Positions 8,325 through 12,573 of a stretch of 55,707 nt of DNA are shown one piece after another (within the stretch, counting starts at the first letter, position 1; every line of letters begins with the position of its first letter). The DNA is taken from positions 1-55,707 of the forward strand of contig JAKBUS010000008.1 in assembly GCA_021841585.1 (NCBI GenBank), given 5' to 3'. The notes under the pieces are model-generated. The model was not told the DNA's origin. It saw nothing but the letters and a program-made list of their open reading frames with translations, and did not search any database. This DNA is from Pseudomonadota bacterium. Its GTDB lineage: Bacteria; Pseudomonadota; Gammaproteobacteria; Acidiferrobacterales; Acidiferrobacteraceae. The position numbers and the translations under genes were made by a program.

Positions 8325-9275
8325 TTAGTCCATAAAGAGCGAGCTCACGGAGTCTTCGTCCGCAATACGCCTTATGGTCTCCGCGAGCAGCTCAGCTACG
8401 CTCAGCTGCCGGATCTTCACGCAGGAACGGGCCTGCGCACTCAACGGTATGGTATCCGTCACCACGATCTCATCGAGCACCGACCCCTCGACGCGGCTCA
8501 CGGCGCGCCCGGACAGGACCGCATGGGTGCAATATGCCACTACTCGCACCGCGCCGTTGGCCTTCAGAGCATTGGCCGCCTCGCACAGGGTGTTGGCGGT
8601 GTCCACGAGATCGTCCACCAGAACACAGGTCCGGCCCTCGACCTCGCCTATGATATGCATGACCTTGGCCTCGTTGGGCTTAGGCCTGCGCTTGTCGATG
8701 ATCGCAAGCCCGGCGTCGAGGTGCTTGGCGAGCGCCCGGGCGCGCACCACGCCTCCGACGTCGGGCGACACGACGAGCAGGTTGTCATAACTGTGGCGCC
8801 AGATATCACCCAGCAGCACCGGACCGGCATAGACATTGTCGGTCGGGATACTGAAGAAGCCCTGAATCTGATCGGCATGCAGGTCCATGGTCAACACGCG
8901 ATCCGCGCCGGCCCCGCTCACCATGTCCGCCACCAGTTTCGCGGCGATCGCGACCCGCGCCGTGCGTGGCCTGCGATCCTGGCGGGCATACCCGTAATAC
9001 GGGATCACCGCCGTAATGCGGCGCGCCGACGACCTCTTGATCGCATCGATCAGGATCAAGAGCTCCATGAGGTTGTCGTTGCTCGGGGCGCACGTCGGCT
9101 GAAGGATGAAGACGTCCTTGCCACGGACGTTCTCCATGATCTCCACCTGGATCTCGCCATCACTGAAGCGCCCGACATGCGCCTTGCCGATCGGGATACC
9201 CAGATGCCGGACCACGGATTCGGCCAACGCCGGGTTCGCGTTGCCCGTGAAGACCGCCATATTGTCTGTTGACAC
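8325..9275 (-). CDS. prs: Ribose-phosphate pyrophosphokinase (PRPP synthetase)
   Basis: A 316-residue enzyme that makes PRPP from ribose 5-phosphate and ATP for nucleotide, His and Trp synthesis. Visible motifs are the flexible-loop region [14 protein letters not shown], the catalytic [11 protein letters not shown], and the PRPP loop [13 protein letters not shown]. The last motif has Asn where many family members have Gly (DTAGT). The GTG start at 9275 follows GAGGAA by a few bases; an in-frame ATG lies five codons later. It is directly downstream of tRNA-Gln and ispE. Confidence 0.97.
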
Positions 9276-9320
9276 GGGTTCCTCGCGGATCTTCTGAAAA
9301 CTTTTCCGTACCGATAAAAA

Positions 9321-9395
9321 TGGCTGGGGTGCCAGGATTCGAACCTGGGAATGCCGGAATCAAAATCCGGTGCCTTACCGCTTGGCGACACCCCA
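9321..9395 (-). tRNA. tRNA-Gln (anticodon TTG)
   Basis: A 75-nt minus-strand tRNA with acceptor TGGGGTG paired with CACCCCA, D arm CGCCAAGCGGTAAGGC, anticodon loop GATTTTGATTC, T loop GGTTCGAATCC and an encoded CCA. It is nearly identical to E. coli tRNA-Gln. Its first 21 bases are also the last seven codons of ispE, including the stop. Confidence 0.97.
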
Positions 9396-10250
9396 ATGCG
9401 TCATCGAGCGCAGTAGTGCATGCACGGGGTGGACATTGCGCCCGCGCGCCACACACGCACGCCAGCGCGACGGACAGGCCGCCACCACGTCTTGCCCGTA
9501 ATGCGGATCCGGCACCTCTATGAAGAGCGATGCGCCCGACCCGCTCATCCGTACGCGTCCGTAGGCCTCCAACCAACGCCACGCCTCGTCGACCGCCCTA
9601 TAGCCGGCGCGTACGACCGCCACGAGGTCATTATCTTCCTGCCCGGCACGGAAGTCGCGTATTGTGATGGGCCGCCGGAAGCCTGTCAAATGAAGCCCGG
9701 CAAAGACCGGTCCGGTCAGGACCGCGGCATCGGGCACGATCACCACATACCACGGCTCGGGCAGATCGACGGCGGTCAAGCGCTCACCCACCCCTTCCGC
9801 CCAGGCCGACACGCCACGCACGAACACCGGCACGTCGGCGCCCAGGGAGAGTCCGAGCTCCGCCAGCAGATCCAGGGACCAATTCAGCCCCCACAAGGCG
9901 TTCAGGGCCAGCAGGGTGGTGGCGGCATCCGAGCTCCCACCGCCCAGCCCTCCGCCGATCGGGAGACGTTTGGTGATCTGGATACGGACCCCGAGACGGC
10001 TTCCCGAGACCTCCTGCAGGAGGCGCGCGGCGCGCACGGTGAGGTCCCGGTCGGCATCGATGCCGACCACGTCATGGGCGCGGGCGATCACGCCATCGTC
10101 TTGGACCGTGAACTGCAGATCGTCCTGCCAGTCGATGAACTGAAAGATGGTCTGGAGCTCGTGATAGCCGTCGGGTCTGCGGCCCACCACGTGCAGGAAC
10201 AGGTTGATCTTGGCCGGTGCCGGCCAAACCGCCGGCCATTCGTTGGTCAT
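9375..10250 (-). CDS. ispE: 4-diphosphocytidyl-2-C-methyl-D-erythritol kinase
   Basis: A 291-residue GHMP kinase of the MEP isoprenoid pathway; it phosphorylates CDP-methylerythritol. Motifs are PAPAKINLFLHVVGRRPDGY near the N-terminus, the Gly-rich ATP loop PIGGGLGGGSSDAATTL at about residues 93-109, and MSGSGASLF near the C-terminus. The ATG at 10250 overlaps the lolB stop by four bases (ATGA). A longer frame extends far upstream but is lolB read in another frame. The C-terminus WGVAKR and its TAA stop lie inside tRNA-Gln, starting exactly at the tRNA 5' base. Confidence 0.96.
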   Translation of the reverse strand: MTNEWPAVWPAPAKINLFLHVVGRRPDGYHELQTIFQFIDWQDDLQFTVQDDGVIARAHDVVGIDADRDLTVRAARLLQEVSGSRLGVRIQITKRLPIGGGLGGGSSDAATTLLALNALWGLNWSLDLLAELGLSLGADVPVFVRGVSAWAEGVGERLTAVDLPEPWYVVIVPDAAVLTGPVFAGLHLTGFRRPITIRDFRAGQEDNDLVAVVRAGYRAVDEAWRWLEAYGRVRMSGSGASLFIEVPDPHYGQDVVAACPSRWRACVARGRNVHPVHALLRSMTHWGVAKR

Positions 10251-10852
10251 GTCACATCCCACCTGTTGATTCGGATCGTCACCACGACCGGGCCCGGGCC
10301 CTTGGTGACGGCATGCGTCAACGTCAGCAGGCGCGGCAACCGGCCCGTTCGTGTGTGGCGATAGCGGCGATAGCGGATCGTCCAGCCGTTCTGGCGCAGG
10401 GATGCCAAAAGCCCGGCGCGGTCGAGCCGGCGGCGAGCCACGGGCCCGGGCGCCGGAATCCCGCGTATCCAAAACCGCAGGCCCGCCACCGGCAAGCGCC
10501 AGCCGGTCAAGCGCCACAAGAGGCGCGAGGCGCTCGCGCCGTGGAAATGACCGCGCCCGGTCCGCAGGTGGGCGCCGGCGGCGTCGGCGCGCAAACGAAA
10601 AATCAGCCGCCCGAATGGGCCATAGCCGGTCATCTGATAGGCCGCGGGCTTCACGATCCAGCGCAGCGCCAGCGACCCACCGTGGTGGCCGGCGCGTACC
10701 GCGCCCTGCGCCGATACACGAAAACGCTGGATTGCCATCATGCGCATACGGTGCGCGCGCCACACACGCCTGGGATGGCGGACCGCGGTTGGGGGGATGG
10801 CCGCGCAGCCAGCCACAAAAATGGCAACGAGGACCACGACGAATCGTTGCAT
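10247..10852 (-). CDS. lolB: Outer-membrane lipoprotein insertion protein LolB
   Basis: A 201-residue lipoprotein with lipobox VAGC (Cys15). LolB accepts lipoproteins from periplasmic LolA and inserts them into the outer membrane. The body has the LolB-like order FRVSAQGAVR, GGSLALRW, YQMTGYGPFG and a basic C-terminal half ending PRLLTLTHA. Sequence support is moderate, but its position between a TPR lipoprotein and ispE is the conserved gammaproteobacterial arrangement. The ATG overlaps the TPR gene stop (TGATG). Confidence 0.88.
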   Translation of the reverse strand: MQRFVVVLVAIFVAGCAAIPPTAVRHPRRVWRAHRMRMMAIQRFRVSAQGAVRAGHHGGSLALRWIVKPAAYQMTGYGPFGRLIFRLRADAAGAHLRTGRGHFHGASASRLLWRLTGWRLPVAGLRFWIRGIPAPGPVARRRLDRAGLLASLRQNGWTIRYRRYRHTRTGRLPRLLTLTHAVTKGPGPVVVTIRINRWDVT

Positions 10853-12573
10853 CAGAGTGCCCGGTGCTTGGCGAGTTCGGCCTTCAGGGCGCTATTGCCC
10901 GGCGCCTTCGTGAGCGCCCCGCGCCACAGGCGCAAGGCACGCGCGTGTTGCCCCAAGCCCCAGAGGGCGGCGCCCAAGTGCGCGGCGATCGTGGGATCGT
11001 GGGACAGATCGAAGGCCTTCTGCAGGTAGCCGACGGCGGTCTTCAGATGCCCTTCACGGTAATAACCCCAACCGACGCTATCCAGGATATCGGGATTTCC
11101 AGGGGCGAGCACCAATGCCTGGCGCACGAGGGCCATGCCGTGCCGCACATGCTGACCGTTGTCGATGTAGGTATAACCGAGGGCATTGAGGGCCGTCGCG
11201 CTATGCGGATGGGCCGCCACCAGCCGCTTCAGGTCCTGCTCGGCCTGCGCCGCCGCGCCGAGCTTCTCCTCGTCCAGGGCGCGGGCGTAGAGCAGGACGT
11301 CGGGATGGGGGGCGTGATCCATGGCGGCATTCAGGAGCGCAAGCCCCTTGGCATATTGCCCCAGGGCCATCAGCACCTCATTGCGCGCGAGCGCCAGCGC
11401 CACGGCCTGGGCCGGGGTGTGGGCGGTTATCCGCGCCAGGCGCTGCCAGGCAAGATGCGGGGCCGACTGCGCAAGCAGCATGAGACCATCGCGCATCATG
11501 GCCGTGAACCGGTAAGGTTTGCCAACGCGCGCGTAGTAATAGTGCGCGCGCGCATAGCGTTTTTGGCTCTCGGCGATCTCGCCCAGGTACAGATTGGCAT
11601 GCGCATCATTCGGGGCCAGCGCCAAGCTGCGCTTGAGGTAGGATCTCGCGAGCCCGAACTCGTGCGAGCGTAAGGCGATCAGGCCCGCGGCATACAGGAC
11701 CCGCGGGTCATTGGGGGCGGCGGCCGCGATCATCTGAAACTGCGTCAACGCCCGGTGCCAATATTGGAGTGAGACGAGGCGCCGGGCATAGTCGAGGCGC
11801 AGCCGCGTCGCCGACGGGTTGCGTTGCAGAAACCGCGCGGAGAACGCCAACGCCCGGCGGGGCGTGATGGTCCACAGGATGCGCGCCTTCAAGACCGCGG
11901 CGCCTTCCCAATGGGGCTTCAAGGCCAGCGCCGCATTGACCGCGCGCAGCGCCGCCGCGCGGTCGTGGCTATGGCGCGCAAGCTCGGCCAGGGCGTATTT
12001 GCCGATCGGGTCTTTCGGATAGAGCTGCGTCAAAGCCCGCATGACCGTCACGGTCAGCGCGGCGCGCCGGTGGCGCAGGAGCAGGGTCGCTATGTGCTCG
12101 AAGGTAAAGGCGCGGCCTTCCGGCCCCTCGTGGATCGCAGCCTGGCTCAGGGCCTGCGCAAACTCCCGTTCGGCGGCCGCGATCCGGGTCAGACCGAGAT
12201 TGGCATCCGCCAAGGCGGCGCGCGCGCTCACGCTCTGCGGGGCCTTCGCAAGCCACAACTTGATCAACTGGCGGGCCTGGCCATAGCGACGGGCATAGAG
12301 CGAGAGCAGTGCCGAGCGCCGCGTCAGACCCGCATCACCGGTCTCCTGCGCGGCCTGCCCGAAGGCCTTCGCGGCCTGCCCTAGATGCCCTTGTTGGCCG
12401 GCGATGTCGCCGAGCAGGACATGATAGAGGAGCCGGCCCGAGGGGTGTACGGTCGGCGCCGATGCCGGACGCGGCCGGGAGATGGACGCGGGGCGCCCGC
12501 CGGTCGTCGCGCAGCCCGCCAAAATACCGAGCGCCAAGACCGGGAGCGCCGCCCGCCACAGACCCTGCCTCAT
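10852..12573 (-). CDS. TPR-repeat lipoprotein
   Basis: A 573-residue lipoprotein: signal MRQGLWRAALPVLALGILAGC with lipobox LAGC (Cys21), a Pro/Ser-rich spacer, then tetratricopeptide repeats along the rest. Clear repeats include DPRVLYAAGLIALRSHEFGL, NDAHANLYLGEIAESQKRYA and NPDILDSVGWGYYREGHLKT. Start 12573 follows GGGAG. TPR lipoproteins in this position are common upstream of lolB and are thought to scaffold envelope proteins; no enzymatic role is visible. It is divergent from the CstA-like gene, with an 85-bp shared intergenic region. Confidence 0.88.
   Translation of the reverse strand: MRQGLWRAALPVLALGILAGCATTGGRPASISRPRPASAPTVHPSGRLLYHVLLGDIAGQQGHLGQAAKAFGQAAQETGDAGLTRRSALLSLYARRYGQARQLIKLWLAKAPQSVSARAALADANLGLTRIAAAEREFAQALSQAAIHEGPEGRAFTFEHIATLLLRHRRAALTVTVMRALTQLYPKDPIGKYALAELARHSHDRAAALRAVNAALALKPHWEGAAVLKARILWTITPRRALAFSARFLQRNPSATRLRLDYARRLVSLQYWHRALTQFQMIAAAAPNDPRVLYAAGLIALRSHEFGLARSYLKRSLALAPNDAHANLYLGEIAESQKRYARAHYYYARVGKPYRFTAMMRDGLMLLAQSAPHLAWQRLARITAHTPAQAVALALARNEVLMALGQYAKGLALLNAAMDHAPHPDVLLYARALDEEKLGAAAQAEQDLKRLVAAHPHSATALNALGYTYIDNGQHVRHGMALVRQALVLAPGNPDILDSVGWGYYREGHLKTAVGYLQKAFDLSHDPTIAAHLGAALWGLGQHARALRLWRGALTKAPGNSALKAELAKHRAL

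Follow-up and report, generated by a model that had tools for sequence, protein, structure and literature searches.

How can the gene for a housekeeping enzyme end inside the tRNA gene that follows it, and how would a cell obtain both products from such a junction? The question is raised by ispE and the neighbouring tRNA-Gln gene in a stretch of 55,707 nucleotides (the window) from a gammaproteobacterium whose genus, we infer, is Acidiferrobacter and whose assembly consists of 124 contigs. The succession of ispE, tRNA-Gln and prs is an old, tightly packed gene order of the Gammaproteobacteria. The features of the locus are the following.

10247 to 10852, minus strand: lolB, upstream of ispE (TIGR00548, E 4.5e-24)
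9375 to 10250, minus strand: ispE, encoding 4-diphosphocytidyl-2-C-methyl-D-erythritol kinase, 291 aa (TIGR00154, E 9.1e-72, residues 7-279)
9661 to 9689, minus strand: predicted internal promoter, TTGACA (9689-9684), 17 nt, CACAAT (9666-9661), 265 nt upstream of tRNA-Gln
between 9396 and 9395, minus strand: expected RNase P cut, at the codon boundary CAU / UGG, deduced from the tRNA 5' end
9375 to 9395, minus strand: overlap of ispE and tRNA-Gln, in which the codons W-G-V-A-K-R-UAA are tRNA-Gln nt 1-21
9321 to 9395, minus strand: tRNA-Gln, anticodon UUG (TTG in the DNA), CCA encoded, single copy in the genome (ARAGORN, Rfam)
8325 to 9275, minus strand: prs, encoding ribose-phosphate diphosphokinase, GTG start (NF003428, E 7.1e-162)

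The ATG of ispE at 10250 overlaps the stop codon of lolB (ATGA), and prs starts 45 nt beyond the 3' end of tRNA-Gln. Read in the ispE frame, positions 9398-9375 are CAT TGG GGT GTC GCC AAG CGG TAA, that is, H-W-G-V-A-K-R-stop, with the UAA (9377-9375) falling within the D loop of tRNA-Gln. A protein gene thus has its stop codon inside an intact tRNA gene of the same strand. That the final seven codons of ispE are tRNA-Gln bases 1-21 had been noticed in a sequence-only reading of this DNA, and the sequence, ARAGORN and Rfam confirm it in coordinates and residues alike. The Rfam tRNA model matched 9324-9395 with 64.5 bits. On the protein side, the family match and the three PDB alignments shown for IspE, which are to enterobacterial-type relatives and cover residues 8-279, end at residue 279 of 291, so that the six residues encoded by the tRNA belong to a 12-residue tail behind the enzyme.

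The same reading held that RNase P would remove the ispE stop codon. For a full-length transcript this follows from the geometry, the cut itself being only predicted: cleavage at the tRNA 5' end would take away the stop and leave a 3' end right after the complete codon CAU. A full-length ispE mRNA thus keeps its stop in the tRNA, and RNase P would turn it into a non-stop fragment.

Relatives of the window's genome were compared at this junction. Fourteen genomes of the genus were searched, and ispE was matched in 13; in all 13 the protein ends in WGVAKR, followed by UAA at tRNA nt 19-21, down to approximately 71% protein identity. The remaining assembly (G006) contains neither ispE nor a UUG tRNA-Gln, only a CUG tRNA-Gln, and the locus is thus probably missing from it. 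The sequence-only reading could have failed through a sequencing error hiding a true ispE stop before position 9395. An error of this kind, or a wrongly placed ispE end, is ruled out by the identical 21-nt overlap in the 13 genomes, one of which (G001) is a single contig, and these agree on the stop. A false call of a tRNA-like sequence was likewise dismissed, since both ARAGORN and Rfam call the gene and 13 of the 14 genomes each have one copy of 100% identity.

A second tRNA-Gln match, 75% identical, occurs in 12 of the 14 genomes and carries the anticodon CUG in the four that were checked; the other tRNA-Gln of the window's genome (on contig C100) also has CUG. With a single UUG copy, and the other tRNA-Gln having a CUG anticodon, the overlapped gene appears to encode the only tRNA of the genome reading CAA. 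A tmRNA was found above the Rfam cut-off in nine of the 14 genomes, including the window's own.

The overlap does not extend to the whole family. In a sister genus, ispE stops 14 nt before the tRNA in all three genomes, which shows that the family can do without the overlap, and a third genus (G017) again shows a 21-nt overlap with a different tail. Comparison of the junction in related genomes, which the sequence-only reading had proposed, thus gave an overlap kept in 13 of 13 genomes of the genus and a stop ahead of the tRNA in 3 of 3 of the sister genus.

The survey was widened by another 33 genomes from the order, by single representatives of 80 families of the class (taken from the best matches listed) and by 30 hand-picked genomes of the class. 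It yielded 160 loci, of which L073 was dropped as no stop was found in its stretch; the sampling is non-random and one genome (G073) is counted twice. In this gammaproteobacterial sample, a tRNA-Gln lies near ispE in 150 of 159 loci, from 103 families. Seventeen of the 103 families in this non-random sample include a genome in which ispE extends 3 nt or more into tRNA-Gln, and 12 of the 17 include one with an overlap of exactly 21 nt and the stop at nt 19-21; in the other 86 sampled families no sampled genome overlaps by at least 3 nt. When the genus is counted once, the distances in 138 genomes comprise 20 overlaps of at least 3 nt, four of 0-2 nt, 56 gaps of 1-30 nt and 58 longer ones, with a median gap of 19 nt. 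Two named records stand outside this tally, L052 with an overlap of 36 or 37 nt and L053 with one of 2 nt.

Several junctions of the survey have structures of their own. In L052, a Chromatiaceae record, the D-loop TAA reads GAA and ispE continues as far as a TGA within the anticodon loop; since the 3' end of this tRNA is unusual too, the tRNA itself may have changed or the assembly may contain an error. In L258 (G060), ispE apparently reads 64 nt into tRNA-Gln to a stop in the T arm, leaving the tRNA almost wholly nested. In loci L065 (G045) and L064 (G043), ispE is followed by a partial tRNA-Gln comprising its 5' part (about 38 nt and about 50 nt, respectively); an insert with many inverted repeats separates this fragment from an intact tRNA-Gln, an arrangement that looks like a small element inserting into tRNA-Gln; in L065 the ispE stop is the TAG of the fragment. 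Tandem tRNA-Gln genes follow ispE in L267 (G403), with three copies, and in L272 (G098), with two.

The frame in which ispE enters the tRNA was also compared. The tRNA-Gln sequence has stops only in the frame that starts at nt 1 (TAA at 19, TGA at 34), and its other two frames are wholly open. Among the 20 overlapping genomes (genus counted once), ispE enters 15 times in the first frame, which has the D-loop stop, five times in the second and never in the third. In the five second-frame cases the stop is a TAG at nt 8-10 (three genomes), the D-loop TAA displaced by one additional base in the loop (L156) or a stop in the T arm (L258), and read-through of the whole tRNA was not seen in any of the 20. 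The bias has a p of 1.7e-4 for 15 or more in the first frame and of 3e-4 for none in the third; by family, leaving out the mixed family f6, it is 12 of 16 in the first frame (p 8e-4). These tests treat the frames as equally likely and the genomes as independent, which is only roughly true, L066, L069 and L085 being from one genus. Entry is thus biased towards frames that hold a tRNA stop, implying counter-selection at least of reading through the tRNA. Judged from these sequence comparisons, the pattern of overlaps is more than chance.

Other tRNA genes of the window's genome were inspected too, 20 stretches with 21 tRNAs (L223-L242) out of 37 tRNA matches. An in-frame TAG occurs at nt 8-10 in one frame of 17 of the 21 tRNA genes, which thus provide genes running into them with stops that are already in place. 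Eleven frames open for at least 60 codons run into one of these tRNAs; a Pfam scan of nine of the 11 gave no matches, and no second overlap was found among these frames.

The second part of the question concerns the origin of the tRNA. In a scan of positions 9250-10950, the site at 9689-9661 was the sole sigma-70-like site on either strand, with shuffled sequences averaging 0.3. It has TTGACA, a spacer of 17 (within the range of 16-18) and a -10 box whose second and sixth bases are A and T, and matches the consensus at 10 of 12 positions, the -10 box alone at four of six. Both boxes and their spacing are invariant in the 13 genomes of the genus. Synonymous-codon conservation of ispE in these 13 genomes is highest in the nine codons lying 300-273 nt before the tRNA (z 3.28), with z above 2.5 at further places in the promoter stretch; the only other peak is the overlap with the tRNA (z 3.27).

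Farther relatives show the same constraint. The TTGACA is exact at the homologous place in 73 of 82 loci, some of which are duplicates. In 99 loci, the codons at the promoter site are TTG for Leu in 94, ACA for Thr in 90 and ATA at the Ile site in 83, against a background in the same genes, promoter sites included, of 18% TTG among Leu codons, 21% ACA among Thr codons and 19% ATA among Ile codons. By family, TTGACA occurs in 19 of 20 and a -10 of the form xAxAAT in all 20, though the residue encoded at the -10 is Thr, Lys or Arg. The promoter codons and xAxAAT are thus kept although the encoded amino acid changes, which points to a constraint at the DNA level; the DNA of the site is conserved beyond the demands of the protein. 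In 18 of the 20 overlapping genomes (genus counted once) TTGACA is accompanied by a -10 of at least four matches in six, that of L272 being displaced by 12 nt in the alignment, and two overlapping genomes (L176 and L271) are without the site. A sigma-70-type promoter inside ispE is, on this comparative evidence, strongly supported.

The promoter also goes together with the neighbouring tRNA. Of 28 loci with a tRNA-Gln within 200 nt, 19 have the promoter at the homologous place, against none of four loci without such a tRNA (Fisher test on 32 loci, p 0.02), related loci in these promoter comparisons not being independent. E. coli and Shewanella are among the four; in E. coli K-12 there is no tRNA between ispE and prs, and the boxes read CTCCCG and GTCAAT. 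One of the nine tRNA-adjacent loci without a promoter at the homologous place has a copy 12 nt away. Exceptions occur in both directions: in L033, L035, L051 and L055 the tRNA is present and TTGACA is absent, and in L092 the whole promoter is kept with no tRNA in the stretch fetched. E. coli prs starts inside ispE and has a leader of about 300 nt; no paper on this start was found in the open-licence literature. The promoter inside ispE probably drives tRNA-Gln and prs in many Gammaproteobacteria.

On balance, we favour the view that the overlap is tolerated and that two kinds of transcript make it workable. In Acidiferrobacter, ispE no longer has a stop ahead of the tRNA and uses the D-loop UAA instead. 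Most tRNA-Gln and prs RNA would come from the internal sigma-70-type promoter; such RNAs would have no ispE start codon and few ribosomes, so that the tRNA would fold and be cut freely, releasing tRNA-Gln and leaving prs with an mRNA leader of 45 nt. IspE would be made from longer lolB-ispE transcripts running through the tRNA, on which a ribosome terminating at the ispE stop would keep the 5' half of the tRNA open. The promoter by itself does not prevent cutting of the full-length ispE mRNA: whenever no ribosome is there, the tRNA could fold and RNase P could cut, and the ribosomes upstream would end on a non-stop fragment and then be rescued, tmRNA being available for ribosomes on such ends. 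No more than six C-terminal residues would be lost in this way; they are not part of the conserved enzyme, and their loss should be harmless. In this picture the division between transcripts, the RNase P cutting and the rescue are inferred.

The sequence-only reading had gone further, suggesting that each transcript could give either tRNA-Gln or a translatable ispE mRNA, unless the tRNA had a promoter of its own inside ispE, and that this might couple isoprenoid synthesis to tRNA processing or ribosome rescue. As a switch, RNase P cutting or tmRNA tagging would set the level of IspE. The geometrical part of that reading stood, the stop being within tRNA-Gln and the predicted cut falling between two codons, and such a switch would gain from the fact that this is the only UUG tRNA-Gln found in a genome that also has tmRNA and from an overlap that is kept across the genus and recurs in 17 of the 103 sampled families. 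Were the tRNA without a promoter of its own, it would come only from ispE transcripts and the either/or would follow; yet the claim is weakened by the comparative evidence for a conserved promoter inside ispE, which would uncouple the supply of tRNA from ispE mRNA. The earlier stop of the sister genus and the predominance of families without overlap speak against it as well. Nor is there an evident functional connection between IspE and tRNA-Gln: IspE is by family match a kinase of isoprenoid synthesis, not a partner protein acting on the overlapped tRNA, and we know of no tRNA role for it. Such a switch thus seems quite improbable. We regard as decidedly improbable a coupling in both directions, in which ribosomes at the D-loop UAA would delay maturation of the sole CAA-reading tRNA by keeping its 5' half open while RNase P would make ispE mRNA non-stop at a codon boundary, the convergence of 12 families on this UAA would be due to selection for the coupling, and the internal promoter would act as a bypass for a basal tRNA supply.

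It is rather unlikely that the overlap merely drifted into being where the genes are tightly packed, affecting neither of them, and that the internal promoter matters for prs only. The overlaps do resemble the tail of the continuous spread of distances seen in the 138 genomes, and the seven tail codons before the tRNA have 8, 5 and 10 changes at codon positions 1, 2 and 3, compared with 38, 40 and 112 over 75 codons upstream, which is not clearly the mark of a selected protein. Drift alone, however, would not account for entry frames biased towards the tRNA stops, nor for a promoter missing from the four loci without an adjacent tRNA though prs is present there. Very unlikely, in our estimate, is a tRNA-Gln promoter directly beside the tRNA in the tail of ispE, instead of or besides the site 265 nt upstream; in G017 (L063) a perfect TATAAT precedes the tRNA by about 12 nt, and L116 has a TATAAT in the same stretch, but in the genus the sequence just before the tRNA is GC-rich and without such a box, and the scan around the locus gave only the upstream site. 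As for a function in IspE of the WGVAKR tail itself, the recurrence of this or a close form in several families is set against residues that are fixed by the tRNA sequence alone, their place behind the conserved enzyme and the lack of the tail in most sampled relatives, and it is extremely unlikely. The preferred reading is that of an overlap tolerated with the help of two kinds of transcript.

A single-copy and apparently essential tRNA gene can thus hold the end of a bacterial housekeeping gene, and the arrangement has arisen repeatedly. The overlap being real and recurrent, annotation procedures that trim or drop genes overlapping a tRNA would give wrong protein ends. If cutting of the ispE mRNA is real, the locus constitutes a natural test of translation and tRNA processing competing on one RNA.

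In the open-licence literature no paper was found on the ispE/tRNA-Gln overlap, on the repeated use of the D-loop UAA or on a tRNA-Gln promoter inside ispE, and a comparison of the junction with a phage collection gave only tRNA-level matches among the matches listed. Joint transcripts of an mRNA and a tRNA are familiar from secG-leuU of E. coli, where the two are separated by nucleases and the stop of the mRNA lies upstream of the tRNA. The ispE case would share the joint transcript, but a secG-type mRNA keeps its stop ahead of the tRNA, whereas that of ispE does not. Neither ispE nor prs is mentioned in the main text of a Burkholderia start-site mapping study (PMC4603805).

Overlapping or punctuating tRNAs also occur in animal mitochondria, as described in Mukai 2021 (PMC8124441), and non-stop mitochondrial mRNAs are treated in PMC9674279. 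As may be the case with ispE, tRNA cutting there frees the adjacent mRNAs, which can end up lacking a stop codon; mitochondria, however, have compact genomes with one transcription unit, unlike a bacterial operon with an internal promoter. The closest likeness is with selB and selC. According to Mukai 2021 (PMC8124441), tRNA-Sec genes are nested in, or partly overlapped by, selB, with the stop inside the tRNA in some Dyella and Luteibacter and before the tRNA in selB relatives, and a non-stop mRNA arising from tRNA cutting, which would reduce the yield of protein, was proposed. In both cases a protein gene runs into the following tRNA gene of the same strand, and a non-stop model was put forward there too; the selB case differs in pairing tRNA-Sec with its partner factor SelB and in having the tRNA mostly wholly nested. 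The ispE case, in contrast, involves a housekeeping enzyme whose gene contains a conserved promoter and nearly always has the D-loop UAA as its stop. The non-stop idea is not new in kind, being of the same kind as in the selB/tRNA-Sec overlaps; what is new here is the gene pair, its recurrence and the conserved internal promoter.
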